Below are positions 3,512 to 27,799 of a DNA stretch of 39,139 nt, in pieces. The stretch comes from Acidobacteriota bacterium (GTDB taxonomy: Bacteria; Acidobacteriota; Thermoanaerobaculia; UBA5066; Gp7-AA6). A program made the position numbers and the translations under genes. Numbering within the stretch: position 1 is the stretch's first letter; the number at the start of each line of letters is the position of its first letter. A model generated the notes under the pieces. It searched no databases. It was not told the DNA's origin and saw only the letters and a program-made list of their open reading frames with translations. Location: assembly GCA_003222385.1 (NCBI GenBank), contig QHVV01000004.1, forward strand, positions 48,277 through 87,415, written 5' to 3'.

Positions 3512-4832
3512 CGAACGAACGGCCGCGGAGCTCGTCCGGAGTCAGGCCGCTCTTCTCGACCGCCTCGGCTTCCGTGATCGCGCCGCAGCTCCACGCTCGG
3601 AGGAAGTGGTTCAGCAGACCCTGGCCGGTTGCCGCGTCGTCGAAGATCTCGCCGACGAGCGTGGCCTGGCCCGCTTTCGAGACGAAGTTCTTGAGGCGCG
3701 CGGCCGCCGAGTCGAGACCCTCCAGGAAGAACGCGTAGAGCGCGGCGTAGCGCGTCGGGAGCTGCGCCGGGTGGAGGTCCCAACCCTGGTAGAAGCCGTG
3801 CGCGAGCGAGTGACGCACGTGGTCGTAGTGCAGCTTCCAGGCGGCGTGCACCGCGGTCCGGTTCTCCTCGATCTGACGGACGTCGAGTGCCGGCCTACCC
3901 GCTGACGGCCGGTGCGGCGGGACGGGAAGAACGTTCGTCGAACCGTCCGAGATCCAGACTCCGGTCCCCGCGAGCGCGACCTGCATCACGCTCTTCGCGA
4001 AGTCGCACGCCGGGTGGGTCATCGTCTGGTACGCGGCGGTGATGTTCAGCGACGCCGTGTAGTCGTATGTGCCGAAGTGCGCGGCGATGCACCGTCCGCG
4101 CGACGCGCCGACGAGGCGGAGAAGCGACGCGCTTCCGCTCTCGTCGAGCACGGCCTGCGGCGTCTCGACCATGATTTCGAAAGGAAGTGTCCGCTCGGAG
4201 AGGCCGAGGTGCCTCTCGAGCAACTCGAGGACCTGAGCGAGCGCGGCGGCGTGATCCGGCACGGTCACCTTGGGGAGCGTCACGACGAAGTTGTCGGGGA
4301 TCCGTCCCCCCGTCTTCCGCACGAGCGCCGTCAGGAAGAGATCGAGGGTGCGGATCGCGCGCCGCTTCAGCTCTTCGGTGAACGGCTTGATCCGGAGACC
4401 GATGGAGGGGGGCAGCGTGCCTTCGGCGAGGCCCTTCGCCACCTCGACGGCGGTCGATTCGGCGTGGCCGTCCTCTTCGGAGTCCGGGCGGTTGCCGTAG
4501 CCGTCCTCGAAGTCGATGCGGAAGTCCTCGACCGGCTCGCGCTCCAGCTTCGAGACCACCCGCTCGAATATCCGTTCGGCCAGCTCCTCCGCGAATCCGA
4601 GCACGCGCGCGAACTCCCGCGCCCCCGGCGCGTACGTGTCGAGGGACCGCCGCGCGAGCGCTCCCAGCTTCGAGGCGGTGTCCGAGGCAAACACCTGCGC
4701 GCCGCCGTAGACGGTGTGGACCGGCTGCCGCCGCGGGGAATCGCCGGCGTAGCGCCGGGCGAAGGCTCGGTTCGCTTCCCCGATCTGCGCGAGGACCATC
4801 TGGACGTCTTCGGGCGAAAGGGTCTCGTTCAT
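3483..4832 (-). CDS. HpcH/HpaI aldolase / citrate-lyase-beta-like protein (DUF6986-like)
   Basis: The protein has 449 aa. FEIMVETPQAVLDESG and HFGTYDYTASLNIT resemble the metal-binding Glu and Asp segments of the HpcH/HpaI, CitE and malate-synthase-like TIM-barrel lyases, and an acidic RIDFEDGYG segment precedes them. I recall this long version as the DUF6986 group, whose reaction is not established to my knowledge. The ATG overlaps the stop of the upstream FAD subunit (ATGA), so it is the last gene of the xanthine dehydrogenase operon. That context suggests action on a C2-C4 acid from purine ring breakdown, such as glyoxylate or a ureido acid. The 3' end overlaps the convergent exporter gene by 29 nt. 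Confidence 0.75.
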   Translation of the reverse strand: MNETLSPEDVQMVLAQIGEANRAFARRYAGDSPRRQPVHTVYGGAQVFASDTASKLGALARRSLDTYAPGAREFARVLGFAEELAERIFERVVSKLEREPVEDFRIDFEDGYGNRPDSEEDGHAESTAVEVAKGLAEGTLPPSIGLRIKPFTEELKRRAIRTLDLFLTALVRKTGGRIPDNFVVTLPKVTVPDHAAALAQVLELLERHLGLSERTLPFEIMVETPQAVLDESGSASLLRLVGASRGRCIAAHFGTYDYTASLNITAAYQTMTHPACDFAKSVMQVALAGTGVWISDGSTNVLPVPPHRPSAGRPALDVRQIEENRTAVHAAWKLHYDHVRHSLAHGFYQGWDLHPAQLPTRYAALYAFFLEGLDSAAARLKNFVSKAGQATLVGEIFDDAATGQGLLNHFLRAWSCGAITEAEAVEKSGLTPDELRGRSFVRILMSRRS

Positions 4833-5653
4833 CCTGCGGTGTCTCTCCAGAACCGCTCCAGCAGATTCGCCGAGACCCGGCGACGGTATTCTGCGGTCGA
4901 GCGAAGGTCGTCGATCGGCCGGATCTCGCCTTCGAGGACCCGGCGCGCCTCTTCGATCGGGGCGCCGGAGGCGAGCGCGCCCTCCGTCTTCGGAAGGCGG
5001 ATCACCGTCGGCGCGACGCTTCCGAGAGCGATTCGCGGACGGTCGGACCGAATCCCGGCCAGGACGACTTTCGAGATCGCCTGCGCGGCGCGGGTGCCGA
5101 CCTTCCGGAACCATTGCCGCCCGTCCACGCGCGGGACTTCGATCGCCGCAATGATCTCGTCGAGCCGGAGGACGCTCTTCCGGTAGCCGCTGAAGAACGA
5201 ATTGAACGGAACGCGGCGCGTCTCCGCCGCGCTCGAAAGGACGAGCATTGCTTCCGCGACGGCGAGCACCGGCAGACTGTCGCCGGCGGGAGAGCCGTTC
5301 GCGACGTTGCCGCCCAGCGTCCCGCGATTCTGGATCTGAACACCGCCGATCTCGCGCGCCGCCGCGGCGAGAATCGGGAGACGGCGAGCGACGAGGGGCG
5401 AGCGGATGAGCTCCGTATACGTGGCGAGCGCGCCGATCGAGAGCACGCCTCCGGTCGACCGGATGGCGCGCATCTCGTCGAGCGGCCACAGGTCGATGAA
5501 CCTCTTCGCCGAAAGCGTGCCGAAGTTGAGCCCGACATAGACGTCGGTGCAGCCGGCGAGCGGGACGAGAGGGCCTTCGTCGCGGAGCATTCGGAGGGCC
5601 TCGCGTACGGAGCGGGGCTGCAGGAGCTCGAGCCGGGAGACCGCAGTTCTCAT
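4829..5653 (-). CDS. xdhB: Xanthine dehydrogenase FAD-binding subunit
   Basis: The protein has 274 aa, the usual size for a CoxM/XdhB medium subunit. PLAGCTDVYVGL near the N terminus and IGGVQIQNRGTLGGNVANGSPAGDS are the two FAD-contact segments of this family. The second half matches the CO-dehydrogenase flavoprotein C-terminal domain. It passes electrons from the 2Fe-2S clusters to the external acceptor. The ATG at 5651-5653 overlaps the stop of the Fe-S subunit (ATGA), and its own stop overlaps the start of the aldolase-like gene, so three genes are translationally coupled. The open frame runs further upstream, but that part is antisense-like low-quality sequence over the Fe-S gene. Confidence 0.9.
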   Translation of the reverse strand: MRTAVSRLELLQPRSVREALRMLRDEGPLVPLAGCTDVYVGLNFGTLSAKRFIDLWPLDEMRAIRSTGGVLSIGALATYTELIRSPLVARRLPILAAAAREIGGVQIQNRGTLGGNVANGSPAGDSLPVLAVAEAMLVLSSAAETRRVPFNSFFSGYRKSVLRLDEIIAAIEVPRVDGRQWFRKVGTRAAQAISKVVLAGIRSDRPRIALGSVAPTVIRLPKTEGALASGAPIEEARRVLEGEIRPIDDLRSTAEYRRRVSANLLERFWRDTAG

Positions 5654-6090
5654 CGATGCCGCCGGGATCGCGCCTTCTCGATTGCGCGATAGATCGAGGT
5701 GTAGCCGGTGCACCGGCAGATGTTTCCGGCGAGACCCAGCCGGATCTCGTCGAGGGTCGCGCCGCGGGGGATCGCCGCCGCCGCCAGGATCATTCCGGGC
5801 GTGCAGATACCGCACTGCGCGCCGCCTTCGACCACGAAGGCGTCCTGCAACGGATGCCGGCCCTCCAATCCCTCGATCGTCGTGACGACCGATCCCTGCG
5901 CCTGCGCGAACGGGATCAGGCACGAGTTGACCGGCATCCCGTCCAAGAGCACCGTGCACGCCCCGCATTCCCCTTCGCCGCAGCCCTCTTTCGTTCCGGT
6001 CAGCCCGCACTCTTCGCGCAGGACGTCCAAGAGCCGCTTCATCGGCGGCGCCTGCACCTGTCGCCTCCGGCCATTCAACGTGAACCGCAT
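5650..6090 (-). CDS. xdhC: Xanthine dehydrogenase 2Fe-2S subunit
   Basis: The protein has 146 aa. All eight cysteines of the family are present: C37, C42, C45 and C57 for the plant-ferredoxin-type cluster and C93, C96, C125 and C127 (the AQCGICTPGM and NICRCTGY segments) for the second cluster. It relays electrons from the molybdenum centre to FAD. The ATG at 6088-6090 lies 7 nt after the molybdenum-subunit stop, and the gene ends in an ATGA overlap with the FAD subunit. The gene order Mo, Fe-S, FAD is common in bacterial operons. Family assignment is certain; xanthine as substrate rests on the large subunit. Confidence 0.93.
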   Translation of the reverse strand: MRFTLNGRRRQVQAPPMKRLLDVLREECGLTGTKEGCGEGECGACTVLLDGMPVNSCLIPFAQAQGSVVTTIEGLEGRHPLQDAFVVEGGAQCGICTPGMILAAAAIPRGATLDEIRLGLAGNICRCTGYTSIYRAIEKARSRRHR

Positions 6091-6097
6091 ACAGTGC

Positions 6098-8236
<2,139 letters not shown>

Positions 8237-15582: not shown

Positions 15583-17094
15583 TCAGAACCATCGGCTAAT
15601 AACCACCTTCTTGTCCGTATAGAACTCGTACGCGTCCCGGCCGTGCACCTTCAGGTCTCCGAAGAAGCTGTCCTTCGCGCCGCCGAAGGGGAAGTACGCC
15701 ATCGGCGCGGCGACGCCGATGTTCACGCCGACCATGGATGCCGACGCATGCCGGGCGAACTCCCGCGCCGCCTTGCCGCTCGAGGTGAAGATGGACGTGG
15801 CGTTGGCGTTGGGATGCGCGTGCATCACCTCGATCGCCTCATCCAGCGTCGCAACCGGCGTGATCGCGGCGACCGGTCCGAAAATCTCTTCGTGCCCGAT
15901 CGCCATCGACGGCCGGACGTCGTCGAAGAGTGTGGGTCCCAGGAAGAACCCTTTCTCGCTTCCGGCGACGGAGATCTTCCGGCCGTCCACGACGAGCTTT
16001 GCCCCCTCCTCGACGCCCTTCTCGATGTAGTCGAGGACCCTCTCGCGGTGCCGGGCGCTGATGACGGGGCCCATCGAGACACCCTCTTCCATCCCGTCGC
16101 CGACGCGGAGGGCTTTCGCGGAGGCAACCATGCGGTCGCGCGCGTCGCGGTGCGCCTCCCCGACCGGGACCAGAACGCTGCCCGCGAGGCAGCGTTCTCC
16201 GGCGCAGCCGTAAAACGACTCGGTGATGACGTTGATCGACCGGTCCCAGTCGGCGTCGGGCATCACGACCACGAAATTCTTGGCGCCGCCGAGCGCCTGG
16301 ACGCGCTTGCCCGCGTGGGTCGCGCGACGCCATACCGTCCGGGCGACCGGCGTCGATCCGACGAACGACACGGCGCGGATCTCGGGGTGGTCGCAGATCG
16401 CCTCGACGACCTCCCGGCCTCCGTTGACCAGATTGACGACTCCGGGCGGCAGGTCGCATTTCTCGAGAAGCCGAAAGACCAGTCGTTGCGAAAGGGGCAC
16501 CTGCTCGGAGGGTTTGACGATGATCGTGTTGCCCGTTCCGACGGCGAAAGGCAGGAACCAGAGGGGAACCATCGCGGGGAAGTTGAAAGGCGCGATGGCC
16601 GCGCAAACGCCGACCGGCTGCCGGATCACCTGGCAGTCGATTCCCGAGGAGATGTTCTCGAGACCGTAACCCATCATGAGGGACGGGGATCCGCAGGCAA
16701 CCTCGACGCACTCGATCCCCCGCCGGACGCTGCCCCGCGACTCTTCGATGGTCTTGCCGTGCTCCGCCGTGACCGTGCGCGCCAGCTCCTCGAAGCTCTG
16801 CTCGAGGAGGTCCCGAAAACGGAAGAGAGAGCGCGCCCGCGCGACCGGGGGCGTGTCGCGCCAAGCCGGGAAAGCTTTCTTTGCGACGGCGACCGCGGCG
16901 TCGACGTCCGCGCCGGTCGAGAGCGGCGTCCGCGCGATCACCTCGCCGCGCGCGGGGTTGTAGACGTCCAGAAATTCGCGCGAATTCGACTCGACCCAGC
17001 GGCCGCCGACGAAGTTCTCGAGAATTTCCGCCTGGCTCGAAGAGCGCGACGTTTCGGCCGCGTGCGAGCCGGCCACGACCGCGGAATCCGTCAT
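15583..17094 (-). CDS. mmsA: CoA-acylating methylmalonate/malonate-semialdehyde dehydrogenase
   Basis: The protein has 503 aa. N171 (PFNFPA), K194 (IVKPSE) and the catalytic C302 (GCAGERCLAGS) mark the aldehyde dehydrogenase fold. The position of the general-base Glu of hydrolytic ALDHs reads ALGGAKNF here, as in the MmsA/IolA group, which transfers the acyl group to CoA. It would convert malonate semialdehyde to acetyl-CoA and methylmalonate semialdehyde to propionyl-CoA, the last step for uracil and thymine. It is the first gene of the - strand operon, with AGGAGGT upstream of its ATG. It may also serve valine or inositol breakdown. Confidence 0.9.
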   Translation of the reverse strand: MTDSAVVAGSHAAETSRSSSQAEILENFVGGRWVESNSREFLDVYNPARGEVIARTPLSTGADVDAAVAVAKKAFPAWRDTPPVARARSLFRFRDLLEQSFEELARTVTAEHGKTIEESRGSVRRGIECVEVACGSPSLMMGYGLENISSGIDCQVIRQPVGVCAAIAPFNFPAMVPLWFLPFAVGTGNTIIVKPSEQVPLSQRLVFRLLEKCDLPPGVVNLVNGGREVVEAICDHPEIRAVSFVGSTPVARTVWRRATHAGKRVQALGGAKNFVVVMPDADWDRSINVITESFYGCAGERCLAGSVLVPVGEAHRDARDRMVASAKALRVGDGMEEGVSMGPVISARHRERVLDYIEKGVEEGAKLVVDGRKISVAGSEKGFFLGPTLFDDVRPSMAIGHEEIFGPVAAITPVATLDEAIEVMHAHPNANATSIFTSSGKAAREFARHASASMVGVNIGVAAPMAYFPFGGAKDSFFGDLKVHGRDAYEFYTDKKVVISRWF

Positions 17095-24968: not shown

Positions 24969-25607
24969 ATGGAGTCCGGGAGTACGCAGGGAGCCTCTCG
25001 GAGTCGGCTCGCGAACGCGGCCGTCGCCGCCGCGGCGGTCTGCCTCCTTCTCGCCGTCGTCCGGTGCTCGCATTTTGCCGGGCTCTTCGAGAAGCCTCAG
25101 CTGGAATTCCGCGGGATCCGGGTGACCTCCCTCGGGCTCGACGGGGCGTCGCTCGAAATTCTCGTGGACGTCTACAACCCGAACTCCTATCGTCTCGGTC
25201 TCCAGCGGTTTTCCTACGACCTCGCGATCGAGGACGTCCCTTTCGGGTCCGGATCGATCGAGTCCCCCCTGTTCGTGAGCGGGCACGAGACGAAGACCGC
25301 GACCCTGCCGCTCGGCGTCAACTGGTCGAGGCTGGGAGACCTCGGCCGGGAAGTGCTGCACACCGGGAGCGTCCAGTACGGCGTGTCGGGAGAAATGACG
25401 ATCGCGACGTCACTCGGACAGGTGCGCGTTCCCTACTCGAGGTCGGGCCATCTTGCGATCCTCCCGACCGGCGGCCGCGGAGCGGACGTGATCCCGGACG
25501 ACCGGACGAAGTATTTTCGAAGCGCGGCCCGACGGAGCCCGTCGCTCTATTCGATCGCGACCACGAATCCGTTCTGGAAGATGACCTTCTTGCCGACGTT
25601 CTTATAG
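24969..25607 (+). CDS. Membrane-anchored LEA14-type (WHy domain) protein
   Basis: The protein has 212 aa. A hydrophobic N-terminal segment (about 15-35) ends in a cysteine, but an Arg directly before it makes a standard lipobox unlikely, so it is an anchor or uncertain lipoprotein. Residues of about 44-160 follow the WHy/LEA-2 beta-sandwich pattern with VDVYNPNSYRLGLQRFSYDL. Bacterial members are envelope or stress-associated and of unknown mechanism. The ribosome-binding site is weak. The last 20 codons run antisense through the end of the convergent BamE-like gene, so the natural C terminus may have been shorter. Confidence 0.75.
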   Translation: MESGSTQGASRSRLANAAVAAAAVCLLLAVVRCSHFAGLFEKPQLEFRGIRVTSLGLDGASLEILVDVYNPNSYRLGLQRFSYDLAIEDVPFGSGSIESPLFVSGHETKTATLPLGVNWSRLGDLGREVLHTGSVQYGVSGEMTIATSLGQVRVPYSRSGHLAILPTGGRGADVIPDDRTKYFRSAARRSPSLYSIATTNPFWKMTFLPTFL

Positions 25608-25924
25608 AGCCAGGTCTCGCGCGGCGCTCCGGTCTCCGAGATTCCCGTCGTGATCTCGTCCGGCGTTCCGAGAAGAGCGCGGACTTCCGACGGAGTCATG
25701 TTCTCGTGGATCTGACTGCCCGATCCGGTCGAGCTGTCCTGTTGGCCGATCCGATCGGCCTCCAGCGTTCGTTCGTTGGCCTTCCGAGCCGCAGTGTTCG
25801 CGCGTTCCATGGGCGCCGAAGCCTCGACGGCGGTGGACCTCGACCCGAGAAGGCCGCCGGCCGAGTGCTTGTAGAGCCAGAACCCGACCCCGAGGACGAT
25901 GACGAGAAGAATCAGCCGGCCCAT
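25547..25924 (-). CDS. Membrane-anchored BamE/SmpA-like small protein
   Basis: The protein has 125 aa. Residues 2-18 (GRLILLVIVLGVGFWLY) form one transmembrane anchor, followed by a polar linker. The C-terminal part, MTPSEVRALLGTPDEI, then TWLYKN and a final FQNGFVVAIE, has the BLIP/SmpA-OmlA fold pattern in which the helix-turn 'M(T/S)..EV...LG.P' precedes two strands. It lies 14 nt after the lysyl oxidase gene with AAAGGA upstream of its ATG, so it is probably the final gene of the suf transcript. Role in outer-membrane assembly is not implied by the fold alone. Confidence 0.7.
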   Translation of the reverse strand: MGRLILLVIVLGVGFWLYKHSAGGLLGSRSTAVEASAPMERANTAARKANERTLEADRIGQQDSSTGSGSQIHENMTPSEVRALLGTPDEITTGISETGAPRETWLYKNVGKKVIFQNGFVVAIE

Positions 25925-25938
25925 GGGACGTCCTTTCG

Positions 25939-26655
25939 CTAGGGAGACGTGTCGACCGCGACTTTGTTTCGCGGATCGGGGACGTGGATTCGCGTTTCGA
26001 TGGAATTGGGATAACGGTTCGAGCCCTCATCGAAGATCGTCGCGTCATTGATGGTGACGCGTACGATGTAGTCGCCTTCGGGAACCCCCGTGATGTCGAT
26101 CCATTGTCCGCCGAGCTGTTTGTAGTACCAGTCACCCCAGCCGGAAGTGATCCCCTGGAACTTGCAGTCATACCCGTTGCTCTTCCCGCCGTCGTACTTG
26201 AAAGAGTCTTCGAAACAGAAACCCTGCTTGTGACCGAGACCGGCGACCGCGCCGGTGCGGGTATCGATCAGCGAATAGGTCGAGAAGCCGTGGATGTGGT
26301 AGTGCATGTGACAAGGGGAGTACTCGAAGTACGCCGCGTACGGATTGTTCGGGTCGGAACGATCGCCGACCACCAGGTCGCCGTCCCCCGCGTTCATCAC
26401 GACGGTGTCGAAACGCAGAATGCGGCGGTAACCGCTTCCTCCGACGACCCCCTCAATGAGGCTGCAGGACGCCGGATCGAAGTACCGGTCCACGATCTCC
26501 ATTTGACTGACGAACCGCTTCGGGTCGACCGTCAGGTCGGGTTTGCCCCCGTTGTCGTAGACCGGAAAGTCTCCGGAGACCGAAGTCCGTTGTGCGAAGG
26601 CGGTGGCGGACAGCCCGACAGAGACGAAGAATGCGACGGCAAGGGTTTTTTTCAT
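25939..26655 (-). CDS. Secreted bacterial lysyl oxidase
   Basis: The protein has 238 aa. Residues 1-21 form a signal peptide (AFA-Q cleavage). CHMHYHIHGFSTYSLID carries the copper-ligand pattern HxHxH (H116, H118, H120). GHKQGFCFED and GWGDWYYKQLGGQWIDI match animal LOX around the lysine and tyrosine that form the lysyl-tyrosyl-quinone cofactor; by manual alignment these are K143 and Y177. EGDYIVRV matches the last strand. The enzyme would oxidise primary amines, possibly protein lysines, in the periplasm or outside. It has a clear GGGAGGAA ribosome-binding site and follows the Rrf2 gene by 75 nt. Confidence 0.85.
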   Translation of the reverse strand: MKKTLAVAFFVSVGLSATAFAQRTSVSGDFPVYDNGGKPDLTVDPKRFVSQMEIVDRYFDPASCSLIEGVVGGSGYRRILRFDTVVMNAGDGDLVVGDRSDPNNPYAAYFEYSPCHMHYHIHGFSTYSLIDTRTGAVAGLGHKQGFCFEDSFKYDGGKSNGYDCKFQGITSGWGDWYYKQLGGQWIDITGVPEGDYIVRVTINDATIFDEGSNRYPNSIETRIHVPDPRNKVAVDTSP

Positions 26656-26730
26656 CCGTTCCTCCCGGCCATGATTTGAGGATTCGAGGCGAGTCTATTC
26701 CGTCCGGCCAGGGGCCGGCAACCGGGCGAA

Positions 26731-27210
26731 TCAGGCGTGCTGTGAGTAGCTGGGAAGAGGAGAACCGGCGGGAGACGGGAACGCGTTCATCTCGTTCTCG
26801 GAAACGAGGAGGTCCTTCAGCGTGATCCGACTCAAGACCTGGTCGACCGCGATCTGGAGCATTCGCCAGACGGAACGGATCGAGCAGTCGGGCATGTGTG
26901 TACAGAGCCGGGCGAGGCCGCCGTGCGTGTCGCAGAAGGACGGCTCGTAGAGACGGCCTCCCAGAGTCGCGAGCACCTCTCCGACGTTGATCTGGTCGGC
27001 CGGCCGCGAGAGCGCGTAACCTCCGGCCTGCCCGCGGGTCGACTTGACGAACCCGCCTTCGCGGAGGATCCGCATCATCTTGGCGACGTTCGGCTCCGAG
27101 ATGCCTTCGGCGCGGGAGAGCTCGGGAATCGCGACGCTGCCGGACGTCCCCTCTCGCCCGACGCGGAGCAGGCAACGCAGCCCGTACTCTTCCTGTGAGC
27201 TCAGCTTCAT
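26731..27210 (-). CDS. Rrf2-family transcriptional regulator, probably Fe-S sensing
   Basis: The protein has 159 aa. The N-terminal winged helix (LSSQEEYGLRCLLRV, ISEPNVAKMMRILREGGFVKSTRGQAGGYALSRP) is typical of Rrf2. Three cysteines follow at C93, C103 and C109, in the cluster-binding loop; spacing C-x9-C-x5-C differs from the C-x5-C-x5-C of IscR. It lies 43 nt after sufT, so it is probably cotranscribed and may control the suf operon. The tail after about residue 140 (Pro/Ser-rich) is not part of the family core. No binding site was identified with confidence. Confidence 0.9.
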   Translation of the reverse strand: MKLSSQEEYGLRCLLRVGREGTSGSVAIPELSRAEGISEPNVAKMMRILREGGFVKSTRGQAGGYALSRPADQINVGEVLATLGGRLYEPSFCDTHGGLARLCTHMPDCSIRSVWRMLQIAVDQVLSRITLKDLLVSENEMNAFPSPAGSPLPSYSQHA

Positions 27211-27253
27211 TTCCGTGCTCCCGTTTTCTTACGTTTCACTTCTCACGTCTCCA

Positions 27254-27799
27254 TCACATCATTCCGAGCTGCAGCTTGGCCGCATCCGACATCATGCTCA
27301 TGCTCCACGGCGGATCGAAGAGGACCTGGACGTCGGCTTCGCGGATTCCCGGCACCGTCAGGAGCTTCTGGAGGATGTCTTCGCGCAGAATGTCTCCCAT
27401 CCCGCAGCCCGGGGCGGTCAGCGTGAACTTCACCTCGACCTTGTTACCGCCGTCGGCGAGCGGGGCCAGAGAGACGCCGTAGACGAGACCGAGATCCACG
27501 ATGTTGACCGGGATCTCCGGGTCGTAGCACGTTCGCAGCTGGTCCCAGCAGAGGTCCTCGACCGACTTGGGCGACGCCGACTGTTCCGACGTTTCCTGCT
27601 CGGGCTCGATCCCGATCGCGTCCGCGTCTTTTCCGTCGATTCTCGCGAGATAGCCCATCGGGACCATCACGGTGTAGCTGCCTCCCAGGGATTGGGTGAT
27701 CTGCAGGTTCGTGCCGGCCGGGATCGTGAACTTCGTGCCGGCCGGGATCTCACTCGCCAACACCTCCCGGGTCGTCGTGGTCTCTCTCTGCGCCCACAT
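27254..27799 (-). CDS. sufT: SufT, MIP18-family Fe-S maturation factor
   Basis: The protein has 181 aa. The N-terminal 85 residues are a SufT-specific beta-rich domain (IPAGTKFTIPAGTNLQITQSL), and the C-terminal MIP18/DUF59 domain has DPEIPVNIVDLGLVYG and the conserved cysteine in TAPGCGMGD. SufT assists maturation of Fe-S proteins downstream of the SufBCD scaffold. ATG at 27797-27799, with 1 nt between it and the sufU stop, so the two are coupled. It ends the core suf gene set. Confidence 0.93.
   Translation of the reverse strand: MWAQRETTTTREVLASEIPAGTKFTIPAGTNLQITQSLGGSYTVMVPMGYLARIDGKDADAIGIEPEQETSEQSASPKSVEDLCWDQLRTCYDPEIPVNIVDLGLVYGVSLAPLADGGNKVEVKFTLTAPGCGMGDILREDILQKLLTVPGIREADVQVLFDPPWSMSMMSDAAKLQLGMM

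Follow-up and report, generated by a model that had tools for sequence, protein, structure and literature searches.

Lysyl oxidase (LOX) is a copper enzyme that cross-links collagen in animals. The 39,139-nucleotide stretch of acidobacterial DNA analyzed here, called the window throughout, carries a candidate LOX gene directly behind its suf and rrf2 genes. This arrangement raises the questions of whether the product is an intact lysyl oxidase and whether the placement says anything about what it does. Sampled genomes are designated G and loci L. The features of the gene are:

25939..26655, minus strand: lysyl oxidase (LOX) gene, open reading frame of 238 aa, ATG start, stop included
26593..26655, minus strand: apparent Sec signal peptide, residues 1-21, cleavage AFA-Q
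26296..26310, minus strand: copper motif H116-x-H118-x-H120
26227..26229, minus strand: codon of K143, the LTQ lysine
26125..26127, minus strand: codon of Y177, the LTQ tyrosine
26164..26466, minus strand: span of C64, C115, C147, and C164 (LOXL2 Cys573, 625, 657, and 673), the only cysteines of the protein

The window gene encodes a member of the lysyl oxidase family

The open reading frame is real and runs without an internal stop, and a Shine-Dalgarno-like GGGAGGAA lies 5' of its ATG. Pfam returned PF01186 alone, over residues 75-211 (92.8 bits against a cut-off of 20.4, E = 2.9e-26), with no SRCR domain, and this is the sole PF01186 match in the genome. NCBIfam gave no match for the window LOX or for two other LOX proteins tried. 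A phmmer search aligned the protein with human LOXL2 (PDB 5ze3) at E = 1e-20, and these two results bear out the lysyl oxidase named in the original prediction. The predicted signal peptide also stands as an apparent one; the N terminus, MKKTLAVAFFVSVGLSATAFA-Q, reads by eye as a Sec signal and is a low-confidence stretch in the structural model described below. On its sequence, the protein is a genuine member of a little-studied bacterial LOX branch. The kind is already known, with bacterial LOX published since 2015 (PMC4448552) and an archaeal LOX reported active in 2019 (PMC6452851), and the window gene adds one more member.

An AlphaFold2 model was built from the window protein and seven relatives. 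Its confidence is middling (mean pLDDT 67.5, pTM 0.68), and residues 149-176 fall below 50. Foldseek against the PDB returned only two chains, both of 5ze3, at E < 0.001. Superposition of the model on 5ze3 with VIA-align 2 gave Z = 13.7 and an rmsd of 2.7 over 159 residues, and the next row, a CARDB domain, scored 7.3. A profile of 18 prokaryotic LOX sequences matched 5ze3 at E = 4.4e-46, the sole PDB match at E ≤ 0.001. The model supports a LOX fold for the window protein. Poor prediction of the loop ahead of Y177 confines this support to the fold and leaves out the K143-Y177 geometry.

The copper and LTQ residues are conserved

The phmmer alignment places query positions 116, 118, 120, 143, and 177 on 5ze3 chain positions 309, 311, 313, 336, and 372. 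A single offset of 317 converts all five to His626, His628, His630, Lys653, and Tyr689, which PMC9180022 gives as the copper site (the histidines) and the LTQ residues (Lys653 and Tyr689) of LOXL2. The HxHxH copper pattern and the two LTQ residues were thus read correctly from the sequence, and the alignment to human LOXL2 that had been proposed as a check puts K143 and Y177 on the cofactor site.

Conservation was scored over 55 rows consisting of the window, nine close relatives, eight other domains, and 37 loci from the phylum of the genome that carries L010 (Myxococcota). This set leaves out L015 (split frame), L016 and L017 (partial), L035 (internal stop, short pieces), L007 (fragment), L003, L004, the second LOX matches in L126 and L137, and 29 of the 66 LOX-bearing genomes of the Myxococcota sample, whose loci were not taken as long stretches. 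K143 and Y177 are each kept in 55/55 rows and the HxHxH motif in 53/55 (H116 in 53, H118 in 54, H120 in 53); the exceptions are L146 and L147. L003 and L004 keep all catalytic residues in the 18-row set. L016, which belongs to the same set, has R in place of H120, an effect of its upstream part lying out of frame. H142 aside, Ser113 of the window LOX stands at the place of the human accessory His623, and a LOXL2 His623 mutant forms under half the LTQ (PMC9694262).

Some of the LOX domains have unusual sequences. The copper motif of L146 reads E-x-H-x-R. In L147 (G1192:C68; LOX domain in the plus-strand ORF 4212-6188) it is replaced by D-x-E-x-D with the LTQ lysine and tyrosine retained; this LOX possibly uses another metal or is a dead enzyme. 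In L037 (G344:C101; plus-strand ORF 4376-6187), a long stretch of GDWNADG-type repeats interrupts the LOX domain after the copper motif and before the LTQ lysine.

Paired cysteines are present or absent together

C64, C115, C147, and C164 are each kept in 55/55 rows. In the alignment of the 18-LOX profile with 5ze3, the two cysteines of the LOXL2 motif CAMEENC match C64 and column 70, in that order, and the cysteine of DCQW matches column 183. We assign these three positions, from the sequence alignment, to Cys573, Cys579, and Cys695 in the numbering of PMC9180022. The same paper lists the LOXL2 crystal disulfides as 573-625, 579-695, 657-673, 663-685, and 732-746, and a predicted alternative LOX pairing as 573-579, 625-673, 657-663, and 685-695.

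Columns 70 and 183 are both cysteine in 38 of the 55 rows and neither is in 17, with no discordant row. Four plasmid LOX sequences bring the set to 59 rows. The one from Gemmatirosa has the window pattern at columns 64/115 and 70/183. The three from Streptomyces, which represent one genus and include two from one species, are without C64, C115, C70, and C183 and retain C147, C164, K143, Y177, and the histidines. Over the 59 rows, columns 64/115 have both cysteines in 56 and neither in 3, columns 70/183 have both in 38 and neither in 21, and columns 147/164 have both in all 59; discordant rows number 0/59 for each pair. The alternative pairing would strand partners in these prokaryotic enzymes. 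Prokaryotic LOX cysteines therefore appear, from the alignment, to come and go as the LOXL2 crystal pairs, a result of limited weight that lends independent support to that pairing and is not its discovery. Three changes on the tree suffice for the C70/C183 pattern and one is forced by supported branches, and an independent-pairs test is unable to reach significance. The C147/C164 pair adds nothing alone because it is invariant and hence unable to covary. The covariation agrees with the mass spectrometry of LOXL2 in PMC9180022, in which LTQ formation leaves the crystal pairs in place.

In the LOXL2 precursor, zinc is bound and Lys653 and Tyr689 lie 16.6 Å apart, and disulfide reshuffling as the route to LTQ is debated (PMC9180022, PMC9694262, and PMC9659206). 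We tentatively propose, at somewhat less than an even chance, that the window clade is a minimal two-disulfide LOX and that all-or-none loss of pairs points to LTQ formation without shuffling. LOXL2 disulfides 579-695, 663-685, and 732-746 would then be dispensable, as would even 573-625 in the Streptomyces plasmid enzymes. If this is true, a bacterial LOX of ~215 residues would be well suited to give the first structure of a mature enzyme that carries LTQ. With just four cysteines, arranged as two invariant pairs, reshuffling could take far fewer routes, which would make the shuffling question directly testable. The open-licence literature yielded no relevant paper on disulfides in bacterial lysyl oxidase homologues.

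The Streptomyces plasmid proteins (L153, L154, and L155) are 489-623 aa long as read. L154 has a second LOX-profile match at its N-terminal residues 108-193, perhaps a degenerate second domain.

The gene is sporadic among near relatives

PF01186 matches occur in 2/19 genomes of the window's order and 7/148 of its class, and the other copy in the order, in G138, sits on a far branch of the tree. With the window LOX as query, matches were found in 9/396 genomes of the phylum and in 7/299 in the class of the L012 genome (titled Acidobacteria). One match in the first sample (G377) and one in the second (G1047) coincide in contig coordinates and score, which agrees with an acidobacterial origin of the window. 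The order of Comamonadaceae 2FH (1/399) and the family of a Nitrosomonas MAG (1/125) each returned the center genome only. The phylum of the L010 genome, a Myxococcales MAG, gave 66/329. The statement that lysyl oxidases are uncommon in bacteria is accurate for most groups searched and was already known (PMC4448552 and PMC6452851); it does not hold for the phylum of the Myxococcales MAG.

The window LOX belongs to a clade of 10 rows (window, L008-L014, L034, and L109) with support of 94/96 in the careful tree, just below the starred level, and 96.8 SH-aLRT in a quick tree computed without columns 70 and 183. It unites rows from Acidobacteriota with one from a Myxococcota MAG and two from Comamonadaceae. 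Most tree rows are from MAGs, and the Nitrosomonas copy (L015), split over two frames, is outside the tree. A cross-phylum clade together with absence from nearly all near kin suggests transfer, as judged from these sequences; the alternative is vertical inheritance with many losses. Either way, the window LOX would be an accessory gene that sporadically arrived or was retained. Its composition is the most atypical among 14 local genes: it ranks lowest in GC (0.591), in GC3 (0.778), and in codon adaptation to the neighboring genes (0.581), with the start of sufS approximate.

A mobile-element or virus origin was considered and rejected. No LOX relative was found in viral contigs (by single-protein patterns, which reach close relatives only) or in phages at E = 1e-3, and the plasmid copies, in Gemmatirosa and Streptomyces only, are not close to the window LOX. 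An IS110-type transposase (PF02371) lies near the LOX gene of L009. The Myxococcales MAG that carries L010 (G499) has five LOX matches, one in the window clade and the others more distant, and in L010 the close-clade LOX is preceded, at a distance of 26 bp, by an ORF of 437 aa that resembles a lipoprotein and matches no Pfam family. A search of the open-licence literature found no paper on lysyl oxidase in Myxococcota or Acidobacteria, nor any under "bacterial lysyl oxidase".

A secretion ATPase adjoins some relatives of the gene

The enzyme might act on the cell that makes it, with lysine aldehydes forming cross-links in the envelope or surface machinery (pilins or secreted matrix proteins, for example). 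Neighbor clustering over 20 loci and the window, LOX and antisense frames aside, returned a GspE/PilB-type ATPase as the only cluster present in three close-clade loci. The ATPase adjoins LOX in 3 of 11 such loci (L013, L015, and L034; PF00437 confirmed in L015 and L034), and L013 has gspF-, gspE-, and gspD-like genes by its LOX. The 11 loci are those besides the window (L008-L016, L034, and L109), of which L009 spans only 3 kb. But no such ATPase stands beside the window LOX, and none was found in the 37 Myxococcota loci, which were searched with T2SS probes. The sister rows of L013 and L034 (L014 and L109, respectively) also lack it, with the L109 LOX 400 bp from a contig end. The arrangement differs in each of the three cases: tail to tail in L013, downstream on the same strand in L015, and divergent in L034. 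The L015 and L034 ATPases have GAF and MshEN domains, and L013, L015, and L034 come from three distant taxa. The link between LOX and a secretion system is a lead, and an envelope function for the window enzyme is unlikely on this evidence.

The window enzyme could instead be catalytically dead or decaying. Prokaryotic copies without the copper histidines do exist (L146 and L147), as do broken ones (L015 split, L016 and L017 partial). The window frame, however, is open, its five catalytic residues and four cysteines are intact, and its relatives are conserved, which makes this quite improbable.

Placement behind suf-rrf2 is probably accidental

The immediate neighbors of the LOX gene are:

26731..27210, minus strand: Rrf2-family regulator, upstream neighbor, 75 bp from the LOX start
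25547..25924, minus strand: downstream neighbor, 125 aa, with a hydrophobic stretch near the N terminus and a weak likeness to BamE

The regulator matches PF02082 (E = 5.5e-29) and passes the TIGR00738 cut-off; it falls under the NCBIfam cut-offs for IscR, the SUF regulator, and other equivalogs. IscR cysteines are spaced C-x5-C-x5-C. Those of the window regulator read C-x9-C-x5-C, unlike that pattern. Beyond rrf2 upstream lie SufT (TIGR03406) and then the suf genes. The downstream gene had been called BamE-like, a name that its PF04355 score does not sustain (15.5 bits against a cut-off of 23.2, E = 0.016). Homologues of it occur in 5/19 genomes of the order. It is possibly cotranscribed with LOX because it begins 14 bp from the LOX stop. 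The 3' end of a LEA_2 gene (24969-25607; PF03168, E = 9.2e-13) overlaps this convergent ORF, and in G133 the corresponding two genes are divergent.

The original prediction called the position after an Fe-S regulator and before this gene unexpected. A meaningful link would make LOX part of a suf-rrf2 response, transcribed together with rrf2 and serving under Fe-S or oxidative stress. LOX does lie on the strand of rrf2, 75 bp behind it, and a scan of 25400-27400 saw no promoter-like or terminator-like site, a result of little weight given shuffle means of only 0.2 promoters and 1.3 terminators. Both family-mates, however, carry suf-rrf2 without LOX: G133 has suf, rrf2, LEA_2, and the BamE-like gene with no LOX between, and in G132 suf-rrf2 is followed by glgA-glgC. 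A PF01186 search found no LOX in either genome as assembled. A search of 18 loci, of which L001 and L018 are the window's own, found no homologue of rrf2, SufT, LEA_2, DUF885, or the BamE-like gene in the 16 from relatives (L002-L017). The atypical composition of the LOX gene likewise fits an incidental placement. The link was rejected on these grounds; a stress role by this route is very unlikely, and the position beside suf-rrf2 is probably an accident of placement. An aldehyde dehydrogenase gene at 15583-17094, ~9 kb away, was judged a chance neighbor.

Proposed activity of the window enzyme

The window gene very probably encodes an exported, LTQ-forming amine oxidase, a sporadic accessory gene that landed behind suf-rrf2; we infer export, LTQ formation, activity, and transfer. 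Once exported by Sec and stripped of its signal peptide, the protein would fold into a LOX domain with two disulfides, C64-C115 and C147-C164, and bind copper through H116, H118, and H120. Copper and oxygen would oxidize Y177, which would be joined to K143 as LTQ. In LOX chemistry as described in PMC9180022 and PMC9694262, the lysine amine adds to the oxidized tyrosine and the quinone then oxidizes amines. By this established chemistry, the window protein is expected to act outside the cytoplasm as a copper amine oxidase. The mature enzyme would turn primary amines into aldehydes with release of ammonia and hydrogen peroxide; its substrates could be small molecules or the side chains of lysines. 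Its gene would have arrived or been retained sporadically and come to lie behind suf-rrf2. Candidate roles are nutrient-amine use, competition, and surface cross-linking, and the window LOX widens the question of what use a protein-amine oxidase is to a bacterium.

Comparison with known lysyl oxidases

The Haloterrigena turkmenica enzyme (HTU-LOX) is, like the window LOX, a single-domain prokaryotic protein with an N-terminal hydrophobic region, the HxHxH motif, and the LTQ lysine and tyrosine. It differs in being archaeal and in its 308-aa length with an inhibitory N-terminal segment, whereas the window protein has 238 aa and little sequence ahead of the domain; this comparison is by published description (PMC6452851). 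HTU-LOX is active and BAPN-sensitive, with no known host role, and its primary-amine substrates are numerous; taurine, polymyxin, and some aminoglycosides are among them. By analogy, a broad substrate range is plausible for the window LOX.

Human LOXL2 (5ze3) aligns in fold, copper site, LTQ residues, and four cysteines. The window LOX differs in having no SRCR domains and in having Ser113 instead of His623. It has four domain cysteines compared with ten, the number conserved in animal LOX/LOXL catalytic domains (PMC9180022), and these four are the only ones in the whole protein. Animal LOX/LOXL proteins carry SRCR domains or a propeptide; the window protein has PF01186 alone, with the propeptide judged by short length only.

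The bacterial LOX proteins of Grau-Bove 2015 (PMC4448552) share with the window protein a lone LOX domain, a signal peptide, and a missing first histidine. Five bacterial clades are named there, and Acidobacteriota is neither among them nor in the text. As a gene, the window LOX is unremarkable, a further prokaryotic LOX in a phylum that the survey leaves unnamed. Its interest comes from its minimal architecture and cysteine pattern rather than from its locus, and its value is as a tool.
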